In this document: positions 2,622 through 29,461 of the stretch, piece after piece
How the letters are laid out: each line of letters starts with the position of its first letter
Position numbering within the stretch: position 1 is the first letter of the stretch
Origin: Winogradskyella sp.
Lineage (GTDB): Bacteria > Bacteroidota > Bacteroidia > Flavobacteriales > Flavobacteriaceae
Assembly: GCF_003712105.1 (NCBI RefSeq)
Contig: NZ_RHLG01000004.1
Location: 186,001-250,000, forward strand
Direction of reading: 5' to 3'
DNA: 64,000 nt
Notes under the pieces: generated by a model
Told to the model about the DNA's origin: nothing
The model's database searches: none
What the model saw: the letters and a program-made list of their open reading frames with translations, nothing else
Translations under genes and position numbers: made by a program

Positions 2622-3440
2622 ATGGCGCTTCAAAATATTCCTAATATTAAACATACCAACGCAAATAACTTCTTTCTACTATGCGGACCATGCGCGATTG
2701 AAGGTGAAGATATGGCACTTAGAATTGCTGAAAAAGTTGTTTCAATAACTGATAAATTAGAAATCCCATATGTGTTTAAAGGCAGTTTTAAAAAAGCAAA
2801 CCGAAGTAGAATTGATAGTTTTACGGGAATAGGCAATGAAAAGGCACTTAAAATTTTACGTAAAGTATCTGAAACTTTTGACGTGCCAACTGTTACAGAT
2901 ATTCATGAGGTGTCTGACGCTGCTATGGCAGCTGAATATGTAGATGTGTTACAAATACCTGCTTTTTTAGTACGCCAAACTGATTTAGTAGTAGCTGCGG
3001 CTAATACTGGGAAAACCGTGAATCTAAAAAAAGGACAGTTTATGAGTCCCGAAGCCATGAAACACGCTGTACAAAAAGTTAAAGATGCTGGAAATGAACA
3101 CGCTTGGATTACGGATCGAGGTACTATGTTTGGCTACCAAGATATGGTTGTGGACTTTAGAGGAATTCCAACAATGAGAGGATATGCGCCGACAGTTTTA
3201 GATGTTACCCACTCACTACAACAGCCAAACCAAAGTATTGGTGTTACTGGAGGACGCCCAGATATGATTGAAACTATTGCTAGAGCTGGGGTTGTAAATA
3301 ATGTAGATGGGTTATTTATTGAAACACATTTTGACCCAGCAAATGCAAAAAGTGATGGTGCAAATATGCTCCATTTAGATAATTTAGAAAATTTACTTAC
3401 TAATCTAGTAGCTATAAGAAAATTGGTCTCTACGTTTTAG
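2622..3440 (+). CDS. kdsA: 3-deoxy-8-phosphooctulonate synthase (KDO-8-P synthase)
   Basis: The 272-residue enzyme condenses phosphoenolpyruvate with arabinose 5-phosphate to KDO 8-phosphate, the first committed step of KDO synthesis for lipopolysaccharide, in the cytoplasm. Diagnostic segments are LLCGPCAIE near residue 20, FKGSFKKANRSR around residue 53, TDIHE, ITDRGTMFGY and GLFIETHFDP near the C-terminus. Length is normal for KdsA and full TIM-barrel motifs are present. Its last 11 nt overlap the convergent DUF1801 gene. Confidence 0.97.
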   Translation: MALQNIPNIKHTNANNFFLLCGPCAIEGEDMALRIAEKVVSITDKLEIPYVFKGSFKKANRSRIDSFTGIGNEKALKILRKVSETFDVPTVTDIHEVSDAAMAAEYVDVLQIPAFLVRQTDLVVAAANTGKTVNLKKGQFMSPEAMKHAVQKVKDAGNEHAWITDRGTMFGYQDMVVDFRGIPTMRGYAPTVLDVTHSLQQPNQSIGVTGGRPDMIETIARAGVVNNVDGLFIETHFDPANAKSDGANMLHLDNLENLLTNLVAIRKLVSTF

Positions 3441-3816
3441 ACCGTTTTGGTTTTAAGATTAATGTAAATGGATTAGTATTTATCTCCAATTGTTTCTGAA
3501 GTACATATACTATAACTTCATCATCGATTTGTTCAACAGATGTATAGCGTAGTGATCGAATCGACTTTCTATTGGCATCTACAAAATGTTCAGTAAACTT
3601 TTCCATTTTGTCAAAATGCCAAAATGCTAAATCTACATAATCTTTAGATTGGTTTAAAAAACAAAGCGGGATACCATTTGCATAATAAAATGGAATGCGC
3701 CATTTGTACAATAATTCACAGTCTGGTGCAACCGCTTCAATTATCGTTTGAAGTTGTAAAAGAATTGATTTATAAGGTTCTTCCTGTTTTAAAATATAGG
3801 CTTCAGCTGGGTTCAT
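3430..3816 (-). CDS. DUF1801 domain protein
   Basis: The 128-residue soluble protein has the DUF1801 (YdhG-like) layout: an N-terminal helix with NPAEAYILKQEEPYKSIL, then a beta-rich core with LLYKWRIPFYYANGIPLCFLN and VDLAFWHF. The biochemical role of this family is not established. It lies 8 nt downstream of the next minus-strand gene (3825-4178) and is probably in one operon with it. Its 3' end overlaps the 3' end of convergent kdsA. Confidence 0.75.
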   Translation of the reverse strand: MNPAEAYILKQEEPYKSILLQLQTIIEAVAPDCELLYKWRIPFYYANGIPLCFLNQSKDYVDLAFWHFDKMEKFTEHFVDANRKSIRSLRYTSVEQIDDEVIVYVLQKQLEINTNPFTLILKPKRSKT

Positions 3817-3824
3817 TGCCTACT

Positions 3825-4178
3825 CTAAAACAAACCAAGTATTCCTAAAATTAATAAAGCAATACCAATGATGGCCTTAAATGGCATTAGTTTAGCGGAC
3901 AACTTTCTAAGTGAAGCTTCCATTGAAGGTACTTTACCAAACACATGTGTTAATAATAATAAACCTCCTAAAATACTTAAAGCAGTATAAATTAGATTAC
4001 TCCAAAACGTAATAATTGCAAAAACAATAAGTGCACCGCCAATAACGGTCTGAAAAGGTGCTAATGCTTTAGCAATTTTATTGAAAAAATTTGCATCACC
4101 ATCTAGTTTATCTAAAGTCGCAAGACCCAAGAGTATACCACCAGTAATTTTAGCTATTGTGTAAAGTAATCCTATCAT
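3825..4178 (-). CDS. Small four-helix membrane protein, unknown function
   Basis: I do not recognise this 117-residue protein with certainty. It contains about four hydrophobic segments and two internally similar halves, each with a PF(Q/K)xxIG motif: LAPFQTVIGGALIVF near residue 41 and LMPFKAIIGIALLILG near residue 97. This suggests an internal duplication. It could be a DoxX-like membrane protein, but no conserved catalytic residues are visible. It probably forms a two-gene unit with the DUF1801 gene downstream. Confidence 0.6.
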   Translation of the reverse strand: MIGLLYTIAKITGGILLGLATLDKLDGDANFFNKIAKALAPFQTVIGGALIVFAIITFWSNLIYTALSILGGLLLLTHVFGKVPSMEASLRKLSAKLMPFKAIIGIALLILGILGLF

Positions 4179-4373
4179 TTTTAAATGTATTAAATCTTAA
4201 CTAATATGTCTCTAAAATTACCAAAATGTTACGAAAAAAGTGTTTTATAGTATTTAAATCTTTGTTTTTATCTAAAAAATGTCAGAACTTAGATTTCTTG
4301 ACTTATAATTAACTGAATATTAATTATTTAATCTAAATATTACGACTTAGTTTTATTTAGATAGAATTCTATT

Positions 4374-6731
4374 GTGAAATTTAAAACCACATATCGCCAT
4401 TTTATTTTAGTGCTTTGCCTATTGCTCCTTGGATTAAAAATAAATGGTCAAAGCGAAAGAGATATATGGTATTTTGGGCAACAAGCTGGTATAAAATTTG
4501 ACGATGGAAATGTTGAAAGCATAAACGATAACTCACTTGAAAGAAATGTCTTTTTTGGTATTATCGAAGGTCCAGATAATATTATCTGTGTTACAGATTC
4601 AGATGGGAACCTACTTTTTTATTCAGATGGTAGACGATTTAAAAATAGGTTTCATGACAACCTTCAAAACTCACCAACAAATGAATATGCAGTTAATTAT
4701 TCCCAAACTGCGGTTGCTAGAGACCCATCTAACGAAAACAGATTTTATGTATTTGTTACGATTCAAGATGGTCTTAAATCTAAACTTACTTATACATTAG
4801 TCGATATGTCCTTAAACAATGGTCTTGGGGCACTTTTACCATCACAAACCAATGTTGTATTAACTACAGATGTAGGTCAACAGTTACTTACTGCAAGACA
4901 TGCAAATGGAAGAAATACATGGTTAATTTGCTTGAGTAAAGGGGTTTACTTTTCATTTTTAGTGACTGAAGACGGAGTTTCAACCTCACCGGTAACATCC
5001 GAAGAAGGCGTTAATTTTTTTGATGGTTCCAATGCCAATTATGGTATGATGTCAATTTCCCCGAATAACGAAACCATAGCTTCTATTTTTCCTGCATTGG
5101 GCGAGTTACATGTACTGTCTTTTGATACATTAACCGGTCGATTAGATTTGATCTATGAAGATGAAATAGAGCAAATTATTACTTCACCTCCTTTTGGCTC
5201 TAGCTCGACCTCTGGTGCAGAGTTTTCTGATAATAGTAACATACTTTACACCATCCACGGAAATTCAGGGATACAACAATACAATTTATCTGATCTTGAT
5301 AACATACCAGATAAAATAGGCATCAAAGAAAACCAGTCATTTTCATCAGTGAAAAGAGGACCAAATAAAAAAATATATGTTGCAAAAATTAACGATTATT
5401 TTTTAGGGGCAATTAATGCTCCTGACATTGTTGGACCTGATTGTGATTTTGAAAATAATGTTATAAGTATCGATGCCGAGAACCTTTTAGATTTACCAGT
5501 ATTTCTTGGAGCAAAATACCCAGAAGGAATTTCATATATCAATATTTGTGAAGCAGAAGAAACACAAATTAACTTCTCTGGGAAATTTCGTGAAATAACA
5601 CGTATTGAGTGGGATTTAGGAGATGGAAATACCGCTACTGGAGAAAACATCTTATACACGTATTCTAGTCCAGGGACGTATACAGTTACAGCAAATGTAA
5701 TTGATGAAGAAAATGGCAATGTGATCTTTACAGATACTGAAGAAATAGTAATATATAGTCTTCCTTCGCTCTCGGATCTAGATGATATTTATTTTTGTAC
5801 TGAAAACACAACTTTATTTCTTAATAATTACAATGAAGATATATTAAATGGTGAGGACAATACTATTTTTAATGTTCGATACTACCTATCTGAAAATGAC
5901 GCTCAATTAAGAAGTAATGAAATTACTGAAATAGTTCCTGAAATTGGGACTACGCCAATCTGGGTCAGAGTTGAAAACAAATTAAGTCCTAGTTGTTTTA
6001 CAATTTTAAATTTTAACATCATTGTCCCAGAATATATTACGATAGATATCCCGACTGAACAATATATCTGTGATACAAGATTAGGGTTAACTTTAGAAGC
6101 TCCTGATGGTTTTTCGAGTTATGCCTGGTCTAATGGAGCTAATACGCAAACAACAACCGTCTTTAATACTGGTAGATACACACTATATGTTGAGAAAGAT
6201 TTTGGAAGCTTTATTTGTGATGCTCAAATAACGATTGTTGTTTTAGAAGGCGATGAGCTACCTGTAATAGAAGATATAAAAGTAATTGATTGGAGTCAAA
6301 ATCATAATTCGATTGAAGTGATTTTAAACAGAAGAGGAATCTATGAATTCTCTGTTGATGGCATTAACTACCAAGAATCACCAGTCTTCCTGAATCTTCC
6401 GATTAATGATTATTGCGTATATGTCAGGGATTCTCGTTGTTTAAAGGAAATAAAAAGTGATACGCTCTTTTTGTTATACTACAATAAATTCTTCACGCCA
6501 AACGGAGACGGAGTAAATGACTATTGGCAAGTAATTAATGCTAGTAGAGAAGAAAATATCGATATTGCCATATTTGACAGATTTGGAAAATTATTATCCA
6601 AACTTAAATATTATGACCGCGGATGGGATGGCACATTTAATGGAGCAAAAATGCCAAATTCGGATTATTGGTTTAGAGTTGTTAGAGAAAATGGAGATGT
6701 ACGCTATGGTCATTTTACCCTAAAAAGATAA
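4374..6731 (+). CDS. T9SS type B sorting domain surface protein with PKD domain
   Basis: The 785-residue protein begins at GTG (4374) with a clear signal peptide ending near GLKINGQ. Residues ~25-380 resemble the propeller-like N-terminal region common in flavobacterial surface proteins (SERDIWYFGQQAGIKFDDG). Residues ~398-455 form a PKD-like domain (IEWDLGDGNTATGEN, YSSPGTYTV). Residues ~703-785 are the gliding-motility-associated C-terminal domain (FFTPNGDGVNDYW, IFDRFGKLL, GWDGTFNG), the type B signal for T9SS export and attachment. It probably acts outside the cell in adhesion or gliding. It appears monocistronic, with a 195-bp upstream gap. Confidence 0.9.
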   Translation: MKFKTTYRHFILVLCLLLLGLKINGQSERDIWYFGQQAGIKFDDGNVESINDNSLERNVFFGIIEGPDNIICVTDSDGNLLFYSDGRRFKNRFHDNLQNSPTNEYAVNYSQTAVARDPSNENRFYVFVTIQDGLKSKLTYTLVDMSLNNGLGALLPSQTNVVLTTDVGQQLLTARHANGRNTWLICLSKGVYFSFLVTEDGVSTSPVTSEEGVNFFDGSNANYGMMSISPNNETIASIFPALGELHVLSFDTLTGRLDLIYEDEIEQIITSPPFGSSSTSGAEFSDNSNILYTIHGNSGIQQYNLSDLDNIPDKIGIKENQSFSSVKRGPNKKIYVAKINDYFLGAINAPDIVGPDCDFENNVISIDAENLLDLPVFLGAKYPEGISYINICEAEETQINFSGKFREITRIEWDLGDGNTATGENILYTYSSPGTYTVTANVIDEENGNVIFTDTEEIVIYSLPSLSDLDDIYFCTENTTLFLNNYNEDILNGEDNTIFNVRYYLSENDAQLRSNEITEIVPEIGTTPIWVRVENKLSPSCFTILNFNIIVPEYITIDIPTEQYICDTRLGLTLEAPDGFSSYAWSNGANTQTTTVFNTGRYTLYVEKDFGSFICDAQITIVVLEGDELPVIEDIKVIDWSQNHNSIEVILNRRGIYEFSVDGINYQESPVFLNLPINDYCVYVRDSRCLKEIKSDTLFLLYYNKFFTPNGDGVNDYWQVINASREENIDIAIFDRFGKLLSKLKYYDRGWDGTFNGAKMPNSDYWFRVVRENGDVRYGHFTLKR

Positions 6732-25797: not shown

Positions 25798-25865
25798 CAA
25801 AATTATTCTTGGGATATAGCTTAAGAAATAAGTAATAACTCTTAATTTTTACGTACTGGCACGTA
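25798..25865 (-). promoter_or_regulatory. Promoter and TACGT-N6-ACGTA operator of the giant gene
   Basis: On the minus strand TAATTTTG (25798-25805) matches the -7 consensus. There is no TTG at the -33 position, which suggests dependence on an activator. A perfect inverted repeat TACGT-N6-ACGTA (25850-25865) is centred 56 nt upstream of the -7 centre, the same spacing as at 26570-26637 and 29394-29461. Confidence 0.6.
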
Positions 25866-25885
25866 TATCTGTTCCAGAATTTGGA

Positions 25886-25990
25886 CAAAGAAAAACCCCC
25901 TTAATAATTTAAGGAGGTTTTGGCACATAATTAGTTAATTTCCCTATATCTAACAGCTATTACGTACCTATCAACTATCAACTATTAACC
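25886..25990 (-). terminator. Terminator and flanking repeat (right copy)
   Basis: AAAACCCCCTTAA and TTAAGGAGGTTTT (25892-25921) form a hairpin with one G-T pair, placed to terminate the minus-strand unit coming from 26.6 kb. The ~100-bp segment matches 17262-17366, sharing the hairpin, CACA and CCTATCAACTATCAACTA. Confidence 0.7.
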
Positions 25991-26172
25991 CTTTAACAAA
26001 TTCTGGTATAGCTTAACCCAAATTATGCTATTCATTTGCTAAAATGAAGTTATTTTATTATCGCAACTATAACTAGACGATAATATGGTGCAAATTATTT
26101 TGGCTAAACCTAACATCAAATAAGAGGTAGTGCGTAAATTTTAAGTATTAACACTTAAATCAATAATTGGAT

Positions 26173-26559
26173 TCAGGTATCACTAATGACTTCTAATTTT
26201 ATTGAATTCAATGCTTCGATGAGATTGTGTATAAAGTCTTTATTATTAAGGTCTATATATTTTATTTTGTTTAAAAAGCTGCTCTTATAATGTTTACGTG
26301 AGGTATCGGACAATACTATAAAGTTTGATTTTATACCTTTAAAAATAGTTGCCTTTATAATGTCATTGGCAGTTAAATCAGGAAGTTTGTTATGTAAAAT
26401 TATAAGCTTAGGGCGTTTACTAATAATATGACCCAAAGTCTCAAATCCACCGTGAGATAATTCAATATTATTAAAACCATGACCGAGTAAAAGCTCTTCA
26501 AGGTGTTTTGCAAATGCCTTATTTTTATGGGCAATTATTATGGCAAGATGAGTTTTGGA
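26173..26559 (-). pseudogene. Degenerate response-regulator receiver-like frame without a normal start codon
   Basis: The frame is open from 26559 to the stop at 26173 and reads like a receiver domain: THLAIIIAHKNKAFAKHLEE, then GHIISKRPKLIILHNKLPDL, SNFIVLSDTS and IKYIDL. At the position of the phosphoacceptor Asp (normally LLD-xxMP) it has His (IILHNKLP), so phosphorylation there is not expected. No ATG or GTG is in frame before the receiver core; the first usable codon is TTG at 26436, which would remove the first strands. It is either a pseudogene or uses a rare start such as ATT. It has its own promoter-like region with the shared operator. Confidence 0.55.
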
Positions 26560-26569
26560 TTAATTTCTA

Positions 26570-26637
26570 CAAATTAAAACCAACGCCAAAAACCTATAAA
26601 TACGTATTAGCTCTTAAAAAATAGGTGTTGGCACGTA
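26570..26637 (-). promoter_or_regulatory. Operator and -7-like box upstream of the receiver-like frame
   Basis: TAGGT-N6-ACGTA (26622-26637) is a one-mismatch version of the TACGT-N6-ACGTA operator; on the minus strand it begins TACGTGCCA, as the giant-gene copy does. TTAATTTG (26570-26577) resembles a -7 box with one mismatch. The centre-to-centre distance is again 56 nt. Confidence 0.5.
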
Positions 26638-27285
26638 TTATTGAGAGAGTATTGTACTTCTATTCACTAAAGACCAATTGGTTAAAGCGTTATTACCTTT
26701 TTTTAAGCCTAGTTTATCAATAATATTACTTCTATGTTTTTCAATAGTTCTTATAGAAAGTGACAATGTATCTGCTATTTCTTGGTTAGAAACCTCTTGG
26801 GCTATTAGTTTTAGAATTTTTGTTTCTGAAAGCGTTAAAAGACTAAGCCTTTTTAACTCTTCAGTCGCTTCTATTATCGGTTGGTTATCTATAGACTTAC
26901 TAAAATAGATGTTACCAGAAACGACTTCCTTAATACAATTCTCTATCTCAAAAAAACTATCTTCTTTTAATAAATAACCATTAATCTGAAACGTCTTGGC
27001 CTGAACTAGATAATACGATTCTTTATGGAAGGATAAGATGATAAACTTAGTTTTAGAGCCTTTTTCTCGAGCCATTTTTATAACTTCAAAACCATTAAGC
27101 ATTGGCATATCAATGTCAAGAAAAGCTATGGTAGGGTTTAGTTTAAGAATTAGCTCTAGCGCCTGTATGCCATTGCTTGCTTGACCAATAATAGTGTAAC
27201 CATTTTTTTCAAGTTCATCATTTAACCCTTTTAAAAGCATAGGATGATCATCTGCGGTCACTATTTTAATATCTTCTTTGCTCAT
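26638..27285 (-). CDS. LuxR/NarL-type response regulator
   Basis: The 215-residue protein has an N-terminal receiver (acidic ADDHP at residues 11-15, phosphoacceptor Asp57 in FLDIDMPMLNG, conserved Lys near 105). The C-terminal LuxR helix-turn-helix lies at residues ~150-200 (LSETKILKLIAQEVSNQEIADTLSLSIRTIEKHRSNII). It overlaps the upstream kinase gene by 4 nt (ATGA), so the pair is translationally coupled. The inverted repeats near 25858, 26630, 29433 and 29454 are its likely binding sites. That assignment is inference from position and spacing. Confidence 0.93.
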   Translation of the reverse strand: MSKEDIKIVTADDHPMLLKGLNDELEKNGYTIIGQASNGIQALELILKLNPTIAFLDIDMPMLNGFEVIKMAREKGSKTKFIILSFHKESYYLVQAKTFQINGYLLKEDSFFEIENCIKEVVSGNIYFSKSIDNQPIIEATEELKRLSLLTLSETKILKLIAQEVSNQEIADTLSLSIRTIEKHRSNIIDKLGLKKGNNALTNWSLVNRSTILSQ

Positions 27286-29294
27286 ATAGGAATATTTAAC
27301 TGCATAACAGTACCCTGATTTTCTTGACTTTCAAAATGTATTTTGGCACCTATAATTTTCGCACGTTCTTTTAAAGTCTTAAGACCTAAACTCATGTCCT
27401 TGTATTTCGTCTGAAAATCAAATCCTTTACCATTATCGCTAACCGTGACATCAATTTCGTCTTTGGTTTTGGAAATTTTCATTTTTACAGCCTTAGCTTC
27501 TGAGTGTTTTACTATGTTACTCAGCGCTTCTTGAATTATTCTGTATACATGTAGTTCAACATTTTTAGAAACAGTATTATCTATATTCTCAATGTCTTCA
27601 CTAAAAAATAAATCTGTAGTTGCATTAATGTTATATACAAGGGCATTGATGGATTCAGTTAACCCTAAGCGCTCTAAATTTGATGGATGTAATCCTCTTG
27701 AAATACTTCTGACCTCTTCTAAAGTATCTTTTGCTAGACTCTTGGAATTTTCATTATCGGTAGATTTACTAAGAAGCATTAATTTTTGTCCTACACTATC
27801 ATGTAATTCTCTTGCTATACGACCACGTTCATTCTCTTGTGCATTAATTAAGTCTTGAGAGAATTTGTTTTGCAGTTTCTGCTTTTTTCGTTCAAATTTT
27901 CGGATACGTGATAAGTATGCAATAGTGAATATTGCTAATAATGAAAGCCCACCAAAAATTATCCAACGTTGTTTATCTCTATTCTTACCATTAAGAATTT
28001 CAATTTGTGTTTCATTCTTTGCAATTTGAACATCTCTTTTTTCAGTTTCATACAAGGTTTGATAATACGACAATGCATTTGAACGCCTTATACTTAATAA
28101 AGAATCGTTAATCTTTGTAGCCTCTTCAAAATGAAATAATGCTGATTTAGAATCTCCCATTGCTTGATAAACTTCATAAAGTAATATGTTAGCGCTCTTT
28201 TTTTGCTCAACAGAGCTATTCTTTATTTGAAAATCATAATGTTTTTTTGCAAACTCTAGAGATAGAGAATACTCTTTTTTTGCTAAATAATAGAGCCCAA
28301 GACTTTTGTTATGAGCATCTTCAAAATAGCCTTTTGTATAACGTTCTGGGTTAGATTGAATCCTTTTCAGAATCTCTGTAGCTTTTTCTAAGCTATCTAC
28401 TGAAGCATATGCTTGAAGTAGCTTGTTTAGTATTTGAGGTTCGTACCTGTCTTTTACTTCATCAGAATTTTGGGCATAATCCAGTGCAGCATTCAAATTT
28501 AGTAATGCCTCTGATTTATTTTCAATAAAGCTATTATCTATAGCAGAATTTAAAAGTGCAGATATTATTCCAGATTCGTAGCTTATGGCTTTGGCAAGTT
28601 CTACTACTTCATCTCTTTCAATCTTTGCCTCATCATAAAAACCACTCATACTGTACAAATCGGCTCTAGAACTTTTTGTGTTTACCAGCCTAATAGTGTC
28701 TTTTGTTCTCTGATAAATTGCCTCTACTTCCTGTAACATCTTAGAAGCATCAGCTAATTTACCTATACGTATGTATGCGTCAGCAATATATTTTTTTGAA
28801 ATACCAAATAATATGGAATCACCTTCCTTTATTGCATAATCCGAAGCAATATTATATATCTCTATAGCTTTCTCAACTTCTTCAGAAAAATAATAGCTGT
28901 CACCGCCATTAAGATAAAATCTCGCCAATAAAGCATTATTAGTAACGGGTAATTTTTTGGCGTCAAAATCTTCAAAAAATGCCTTACCTTCATTAGGTTT
29001 ACCCAATCTATTAGTATAGGACCAAATTAACCTAGCAGCTTGCCTATTGGCTATATTAAATGAATCTAAGTTAATGGCATGGTCTATAGTAACTTTTACA
29101 ATAGAATCGTATTTAAATTCTAATTTATCTCTTGTTAACCAACAGAGACTGTCAAGTAGTTTTAGCTTCTCTAATCCATCAGAATCCTGAATCTTATTTT
29201 TTAATGCCTTAACTGTATCGCTAGTCGGTTGCACTTGTGCAAACGTAAAAGAGCTAAAAATTAGAGTAATAAATACTAAACTCTTTTTAATCAT
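27282..29294 (-). CDS. TPR-containing sensor histidine kinase (HisKA_3 type)
   Basis: The 670-residue protein begins with a signal-peptide-like segment, then a long alpha-helical tetratricopeptide-type sensor region (~50-400), a transmembrane helix (~443-463), a coiled segment, and the NarX-type kinase core. The phosphoacceptor His498 lies in RIARELHDSVGQKLMLLSKS. The ATP-binding domain has IIQEALSNIVKHSEAK and VSDNGKGFD. It should phosphorylate the response regulator encoded directly downstream. The stimulus is unknown; the TPR region is predicted to be outside the cytoplasm. Confidence 0.93.
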   Translation of the reverse strand: MIKKSLVFITLIFSSFTFAQVQPTSDTVKALKNKIQDSDGLEKLKLLDSLCWLTRDKLEFKYDSIVKVTIDHAINLDSFNIANRQAARLIWSYTNRLGKPNEGKAFFEDFDAKKLPVTNNALLARFYLNGGDSYYFSEEVEKAIEIYNIASDYAIKEGDSILFGISKKYIADAYIRIGKLADASKMLQEVEAIYQRTKDTIRLVNTKSSRADLYSMSGFYDEAKIERDEVVELAKAISYESGIISALLNSAIDNSFIENKSEALLNLNAALDYAQNSDEVKDRYEPQILNKLLQAYASVDSLEKATEILKRIQSNPERYTKGYFEDAHNKSLGLYYLAKKEYSLSLEFAKKHYDFQIKNSSVEQKKSANILLYEVYQAMGDSKSALFHFEEATKINDSLLSIRRSNALSYYQTLYETEKRDVQIAKNETQIEILNGKNRDKQRWIIFGGLSLLAIFTIAYLSRIRKFERKKQKLQNKFSQDLINAQENERGRIARELHDSVGQKLMLLSKSTDNENSKSLAKDTLEEVRSISRGLHPSNLERLGLTESINALVYNINATTDLFFSEDIENIDNTVSKNVELHVYRIIQEALSNIVKHSEAKAVKMKISKTKDEIDVTVSDNGKGFDFQTKYKDMSLGLKTLKERAKIIGAKIHFESQENQGTVMQLNIPI

Positions 29295-29393
29295 TGGGTT
29301 AGGATAAAATTGTTAAAACTAAATATACTGACTTCTATTGATTTCTTTAAATTCTTTTAAAAAAATCAGTATTTATTTTTGATATTGACAACC

Positions 29394-29461
29394 CAAAACT
29401 ATTTGATTTTTGCATGGCATAGAATACGTACCAATACGTATTGTATACGTGGCAGTACGAA
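29394..29461 (-). promoter_or_regulatory. Promoter and double operator of the kinase-regulator operon
   Basis: TAGTTTTG on the minus strand (29394-29401) matches the -7 consensus. Upstream lie TACGT-N6-ACGTA (29425-29440, perfect) and TACGT-N6-ACGAA (29446-29461, one mismatch), 21 bp apart. The second is centred 56 nt from the -7 centre and shares most of its spacer with the giant-gene site (GGCAGT versus GCCAGT). Confidence 0.6.

Follow-up and report, generated by a model that had tools for sequence, protein, structure and literature searches.

How does a TPR (tetratricopeptide repeat) sensor kinase with a LuxR-type partner choose the genes that answer to it? Such pairs are, to our knowledge, mostly without known binding sites. 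The question is raised by a locus of Winogradskyella sp. (Flavobacteriaceae), where the two genes stand on the minus strand upstream of a gene for a giant surface protein, in a stretch of 64,000 nucleotides (NZ_RHLG01000004.1, positions 186,001 to 250,000), which is called the window below. A first-pass annotation of this stretch had reported the inverted repeat TACGT-N6-ACGTA before three units and had named the neighbouring regulator as its likely binder. As described below, the locus carries four promoter arrays, each with two tandem sites and a -7 box in one register. Judged from the sequences, the LuxR/NarL-type regulator would bind these arrays as two dimers and probably activate the kinase operon that encodes it, together with a degenerate receiver, the giant protein and a small RNA. 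In what follows, G000 is the window genome, other G numbers are other genomes, and L numbers are extracted loci or regions.

Promoter arrays of the locus

The layout of an array is two tandem 16-mers of the form TACGTAn-nn-nTACGTA (NarL-type 7-2-7), 21 bp apart, followed by a -7 box in fixed register. Array 1 stands before the kinase-regulator operon, array 2 before the degenerate receiver, array 3 before a noncoding stretch and array 4 before the giant gene (Table 1). All four copies of the motif reported earlier were located, the perfect ones as the distal site of array 4 and the proximal site of array 1, and the ones with one mismatch as the distal sites of arrays 2 and 1. The distance of 56 nt between the centres of the distal site and the -7 box is exact in the three units for which it was claimed (25857.5/25801.5, 26629.5/26573.5 and 29453.5/29397.5), and the two sites of the kinase operon are 21 bp apart as stated. 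An additional 16-mer lies 21 bp downstream of the distal site before the giant gene (three mismatches of 10) and before the receiver (two mismatches of 10). The three units hold, and the count rises to four with array 3, whose 16-mers have two and three mismatches. The idea of an activator is kept, but not that of a single one bound near -66: each promoter has two sites, with centres estimated at -43.5 and -64.5 when the -7 box is placed at -12 to -5, the convention found for Flavobacterium psychrophilum in PMC9723704. It is also true that the giant-gene promoter has no -33 element, but this is not special to it, since a TTG 17-19 nt ahead of the box is missing from all three promoters named earlier. 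Unlike these three, array 3 has a TTG 19 nt before its box.

Could the sites and their spacing be a chance pattern picked by eye? The bare 16-mer would suit that explanation. It is not enriched in the window, with 24 copies against 20.6 expected (up to two mismatches), and in the 3.15-Mb genome there are 76 sites against 92 for a reversed-pattern control (up to one mismatch), so that the bare motif was rejected as a genome-wide regulon marker. The full array behaves differently. A weight matrix was trained on 27 arrays of other genomes, with the window genome and its closest relative G007 left out. It gave the four arrays as the top places of the window, all on the minus strand, with 48.5 bits for array 4, 40.5 for array 3, 38.7 for array 1 and 32.8 for array 2; ranks 5-8 were the same four read backwards, and the maximum in 100 dinucleotide shuffles of the window was 13.7 bits. 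The composite is thus far beyond chance, as had been supposed for the spacing. The four best matches of an array model (R1) in the whole genome also lie inside the window, array 3 with 37 bits (E-value 8.2e-9), where it should be noticed that R1 itself includes three window arrays and, for the fourth, its relative in G007. The proposed regulon would have been refuted by a motif equally common elsewhere; this is so for the bare 16-mer and not for the full array. With arrays conserved in other genera as well, we give practically no weight to a chance pattern.

What of the perfect copies outside the locus? The genome has nine, of which two are in the window. A third lies just behind a paralogous regulator gene (C1, L002), 4 bp beyond its stop codon, and this position was the first sign of a genuine link between regulator and site. 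The following were not counted as regulon members: C2:161669 and C9:277429, which are inside open frames; C6:304633 and C9:20242, with only 11.7 and 10.9 bits; and C1:152718 and C9:197385, with 18.0 and 21.7 bits. The last two have TAACTTCG 22-23 nt downstream and share the stretch that follows. They appear as dispersed single-site elements followed by TAACTTCGCTTATCnAnCGATATAnTTCA (positions 1501-1600 of L001 and L008), and are possibly further targets of this or another regulator.

Register and conservation in relatives

Is the register kept in other genomes? To this end, 33 regions, none longer than 20 kb and 631 kb in all, were searched, eight regions of another regulator subgroup (group III, see below) being set aside. 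A pair of 16-mers spaced 21 bp was taken as an array if neither exceeded five mismatches of 10 and the better one had no more than one. The spacing of 21 bp had been picked by eye; it afterwards ranked first in the spacing table. There were 34 arrays in 20 of the 33 regions, and none for the reversed motif. Note that the selection made no reference to the -7 box. T stands at offsets 61, 65 and 66 in all 34 arrays, and TAnnTT begins at offset 61 in 32 of them, compared with 0/34 in the opposite orientation. The boxes comprise 9 TAnnTTTG, 14 TAnnTTGY, 9 other TAnnTT and 2 others. A TTG 17-19 nt before the box is found in 4 of the 34 arrays, with about 4% expected from nearby sequence.

An array precedes the kinase operon in all five genomes of the genus examined at the locus (G000, G007, G010, G017 and G470); in G470 it stands before the TPR gene that leads the operon. 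In the four relatives, arrays also stand upstream of the degenerate receiver and of between one and three genes for surface proteins, the latter judged by size and a signal-like start where no domain scan was made. Strong R1 matches occur in G472 and G463 too, and the order of regulator, array and giant gene recurs in other genera (e.g. L084, L086, L089 and L092). Outside the family, R1 matched in one of 23 genomes (E-value up to 0.001), namely G050, which has the closest regulator among them (E-value 5.1e-33). In L080 (G010; 2950-4999 in regulator-strand orientation) the kinase is read as two overlapping frames of 333 and 359 amino acids, which appears to be a frameshift or an assembly error.

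Linkage of the sites to a regulator subfamily

Which protein would bind the arrays? A footprint sample was made of 59 homologous regulator loci, the best place of each genome with 1.5-kb flanks, the window locus included. With up to one mismatch, 48 of the 59 have a site 3' of the regulator gene. The loci together hold 72 perfect and 24 one-mismatch sites, where the reversed motif gives 0 and 4. A control set of 20 loci with more distant LuxR regulators (29-41% identity, 180 kb) held one perfect and two one-mismatch sites, in three loci. The recognition-helix pattern S-x-RT[IV][EQ]KH[RK] occurs in all 39 regulators examined of the subfamily that bears the sites, and in none of the 20 distant regulators. 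Together with the register in 32 of 34 arrays, this comparative evidence strongly supports the proposed local regulon of the neighbouring LuxR-type regulator.

One other explanation is that the arrays are bound by a different protein. Palindromic sites could suit other dimeric regulators, and similar single-site promoters occur elsewhere in the genus, away from the examined loci. In addition, two of the three control loci with sites, L235 and L236 (G003 and G031), have a TACGT-N6-ACGTA-like site 163 bp 3' of distant LuxR regulators whose helix is different (SKRTAEVHR); these sites may be genuine, and are perhaps a further branch of the same promoter code. However, the sites are linked to three subgroups of the regulator subfamily in many genera, the helix pattern separates this subfamily from the distant regulators, and R1 is nearly absent outside the family. 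We consider a different binder very improbable, and take the neighbouring response regulator as the putative one.

Besides the missing enrichment of the bare 16-mer, several points weigh against a regulon read through these arrays. Many of the 59 loci come from one genus, and because the loci are related, their counts are not independent. No site with up to one mismatch was found 3' of the regulator in 11 of the 59 (L054-L056, L058-L061, L070, L073, L074 and L076), among which the larger regions matching L058 and L070 (L090 and L110) contain degenerate arrays. In 28 of the 34 arrays the weaker 16-mer has 0-3 mismatches of 10, and in the other six it has 4-5. In the 33 regions, 18 of the 62 sites with up to one mismatch belong to no counted array, some being inside genes and some beside regulators, seemingly single or poorly paired. 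In other genera no clear array was seen where the kinase gene begins; what was seen is a one-mismatch site (L089, 2899) and the array of L085, which sits between a regulator and a second kinase. The two R1 matches of G050 do not share a contig with its regulators. Finally, the positions -43.5 and -64.5 depend on a start-site convention taken from another species.

Proposed mechanism

How would the arrays work? In the scenario that we propose, the TPR kinase would pass a signal to the NarL-type response regulator, which would bind as two dimers to the tandem 7-2-7 inverted repeats, two helical turns (21 bp) apart. The proximal dimer, centred near -43.5, would lie immediately upstream of the place for contact with a -33 element, and the distal dimer would lie near -64.5; together they would recruit RNA polymerase to a -7 box that is mostly without a -33 element. 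Four co-directional units would be switched on: the kinase-regulator operon, giving positive feedback, the degenerate receiver, the giant surface protein and a noncoding RNA with a terminator. The sequences show the arrays with their fixed register, their conservation and their link to this regulator subfamily; the identity of the binder, activation, the exact starts and the making of the RNA are inferred.

Might the regulator bind the arrays and repress these promoters instead? Autoregulation by repression is common, which speaks for this possibility. Against it, both sites are upstream of the -7 box, the TTG at -33 distance is absent in 30 of 34 arrays and the register is rigid to the base, features that suit activation. 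There is also a precedent for activation from such a place. In E. coli, tandem 7-2-7 sites at -44.5 and -77.5 serve NarL in the activation of ogt (PMC7419079). Repression is quite improbable on these grounds, and activation remains our preferred reading.

NarX/NarL at ogt is alike in several features: the regulator has a receiver and a GerE domain and is nearest to NarL among solved structures, the kinase has HisKA_3 and HATPase_c, and the 16-bp inverted repeat is 7+2+7 in sequence, with two tandem sites of which the proximal one is near -44. The distal site differs, being two turns upstream (-64.5) in the window and at -77.5 in ogt. Unlike NarX/NarL, the locus has a TPR sensor, a Bacteroidota -7 box mostly without a -33 element, and targets that would be local surface proteins and RNAs.

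The -7 boxes can be compared with the promoter classes of F. psychrophilum. In PMC9723704, classes SM1-3 have TAnnTTTG and SM5 has TAnnTTGY, both at -12 to -5, and SM4-6 are taken as most likely under alternative sigma factors. The boxes of the arrays are of both these kinds. Unlike that scheme, both occur here under one kind of array. The main text of that paper has no mention of LuxR, response regulator or TACGT.

A candidate small RNA behind array 3

What is the product of array 3? The noncoding stretch behind it has stops in all three forward frames, and its 3' part is conserved in G007. The fold of the candidate RNA has -49.8 kcal/mol (z -4.1). It ends in a terminator-like hairpin at 25892-25921, and G007 keeps array 3 and a 12-pair hairpin. 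That array 3 drives a small RNA is probable from these features. Alternatively, array 3 could serve the giant gene as an additional promoter further upstream, with the hairpin as an attenuator that polymerase sometimes passes. The transcript would indeed be directed at the giant gene, with the hairpin between the two arrays, and terminator-like sites in the scanned stretch are not in excess (2 against 1.5 expected from shuffles). However, the hairpin has 13 pairs with a T-rich tail and is kept in G007, and an independent array follows it, with a start estimated at 19 nt upstream of the ATG of the giant gene. In L093, moreover, the terminated noncoding stretch behind an array is followed by a gene of opposite strand, and most tandem units of L195-L201 (see below) end in their own terminators. 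An attenuator therefore seems rather unlikely to us, and the small RNA is preferred.

An array followed by a noncoding stretch with a terminator-like hairpin is also seen in L078, L085, L089, L092 (twice), L093 and L094, as in the window, some of them found by eye. In the alignment of these group-I noncoding RNAs, a TRACTAACCA-like stretch precedes the hairpin in five; it is weaker in L078 and the window and is not in L085. Array-like promoters with a terminator-like hairpin 106-133 nt after the box occur in L202 and L203 (G312 and G086, about 5050-5230), away from the listed regulator genes, and are possible dispersed small RNA genes.

Predicted tandem small RNA genes beside group-III regulators

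Are there other outputs of this kind in the family? The group-III subgroup (39-44% identity in the window's genus) is absent from the window genome. The promoters that go with it have a single site, keep the box register and commonly stand in rows: R1 finds seven such places in L195, at least five in L196, three in L197 and four in L198, at intervals between 140 and about 540 bp, many of them close to 145. Tandem units in L195-L201 and the group-III loci L022-L045 of the window's genus show rows of predicted, terminator-ended small RNA genes, each about 75 nt long and with a TACGTA-N4-TACGTA promoter, located 3' of a related response regulator. Common to the units are GCUAUUAAU, a terminator and a small hairpin whose loop is UAGGG-like. 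RNAalifold, applied to 28 of 34 extracted units, gave 17 pairs, of which 12 have at least one double change, 10 of these 12 being in the terminator. Since the covarying pairs are mostly there, they support a transcribed terminator more than a special fold.

A covariance model (R2) found this RNA in 108 of 397 genomes of the family and 73 of 237 genera (E-value up to 1e-4); among 60 relatives it was found in 23 (E-value up to 0.01), all within the window's genus. The list of 150 R2 places has 91 in genomes with a regulator among the matches listed. On the same strand and within 2 kb 3' of such a listed regulator lie 63 of the 91, 24 of them at 52-60 nt, and the remaining 28 lie elsewhere. At least one R2 place within 2 kb 3' is found in 41 of the 49 genomes with a regulator among the matches listed. 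R2 did not find the RNA in the window genome (best E-value 0.017), and the noncoding stretch of the window was thus rejected as a member. Rfam gave no match at gathering score except tRNAs for 13 loci (L085, L093, L094 and L104 not among them), and only sub-threshold matches for slices of L196 and the window.

Do these RNAs resemble the GacS/GacA-RsmX/Y/Z system? A LuxR-type regulator and a palindromic upstream element before several small RNA genes are common to both (PMC2375449). Unlike Gac/Rsm, the genes here are directly 3' of the regulator gene and often tandem, the consensus has one GGG loop per RNA, and no CsrA/RsmA gene is found. CsrA (PF02599) was in none of 18 genomes, namely the window genome, G007 and 16 with the R2 RNA, while 3 of 14 control genomes were positive. 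Titration of CsrA by these small RNAs is thus excluded in the 18 genomes and was rejected.

Genes of the window locus

The features of the locus are collected in Table 1. The regulator fits the NarL/FixJ class, with an N-terminal receiver (PF00072, E-value 1.1e-19) and a C-terminal GerE domain (PF00196, E-value 2.4e-11), and its closest relative with a solved structure is NarL (1a04). It is not NarL itself: the NarL equivalog model gives 106.8 bits against a cut-off of 250, and the half-site of the window is TACGTAn, unlike the TACYYMT of NarL. The kinase is of the NarX type, with PF07730 (HisKA_3) and PF02518 (HATPase_c) above cut-off.

The receiver-like frame has a weak PF00072 match below cut-off (E-value 0.06), and no ATG, GTG or TTG is near its 5' end in G000 or G007. 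Against G007 the nonsynonymous (dN) and synonymous (dS) rates are 0.31 and 1.33, and the dN/dS of 0.23 is only rough because dS is above 1. A pseudogene is not favoured at this ratio, despite the missing usual start codon. The aligned phospho-Asp column has His in G000, Glu in G007, G017, G010 and G146, and Asp in G395, where the protein is longer and has a helix-turn-helix. With Glu or His in this column, the receiver looks as if locked or not phosphorylatable. The frame can be read as a duplicate of the regulator without its former output domain.

The C-terminal sorting domain of the type IX secretion system (PF18962 or TIGR04183) has no match in the giant protein of the window, and is present in all four scanned giant proteins of other loci (L080, L084, L086 and L089).

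Table 1. Promoter arrays, genes and the candidate RNA of the locus (starts are estimated)
Feature	Positions	Strand	Remarks
Promoter array 1 (kinase-regulator operon)	29394..29461	-	distal 29446-29461, proximal 29425-29440
Array 1 -7 box	29394-29401	-	TAGTTTTG; estimated start 29389
Promoter array 2 (degenerate receiver)	26570..26637	-	distal 26622-26637, proximal 26601-26616
Array 2 -7 box	26570-26577	-	TTAATTTG; estimated start 26565
Promoter array 3 (before noncoding stretch)	26090..26157	-	distal 26142-26157, proximal 26121-26136
Array 3 -7 box	26090-26097	-	TAATTTGC; estimated start 26085
Promoter array 4 (giant protein gene)	25798..25865	-	distal 25850-25865, proximal 25829-25844
Array 4 -7 box	25798-25805	-	TAATTTTG; estimated start 25793
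TPR sensor histidine kinase, 670 aa	27282..29294	-	HisKA_3 + HATPase_c
NarL/FixJ (LuxR)-type response regulator, 215 aa; proposed array binder	26638..27285	-	receiver + GerE
Degenerate receiver-like frame, 128 codons stop to stop	26173..26559	-	conserved coding sequence
Candidate small noncoding RNA, ~195 nt	25892..26085	-	ends in terminator-like hairpin
Giant surface protein, 2519 aa	18215..25774	-	HYR, proprotein-convertase P-domain, C-type lectin and DUF5649 matches

Meaning for the family

What is new here? The NarL-like mechanism is of a known kind, while the site, the double array and the small RNA output look new. Queries of open-licence PMC, most of them narrow multi-term ones, found no paper on this motif with a flavobacterial regulator or on such small RNAs. 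Taken together, the observations may be joined into one reading, to which we give about even confidence. A NarL-like subfamily of Flavobacteriaceae would use one promoter code, TACGTA-N4-TACGTA with a constant distance to the -7 box, and one to seven small RNA genes directly behind the regulator's own gene would be its main output. This would be a two-component pathway of Bacteroidota that works through small RNAs and without CsrA titration. In the lineage of the window, a degenerate receiver and a giant surface protein would have come under the code as well, and the locus would have a single noncoding RNA.

If this is true, a large TPR-kinase/LuxR subfamily in Flavobacteriaceae would have a readable promoter code, and its targets would be predictable from sequence in many genera. 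The regulator subfamily would be tied to giant surface proteins, and a widespread small RNA family, for which no Rfam entry was found, would be exposed. Part of the TAnnTTGY promoter class would obtain an activator-based reading. The occurrence of TAnnTTTG and TAnnTTGY under one array type bears on whether SM5 of F. psychrophilum needs an alternative sigma factor.

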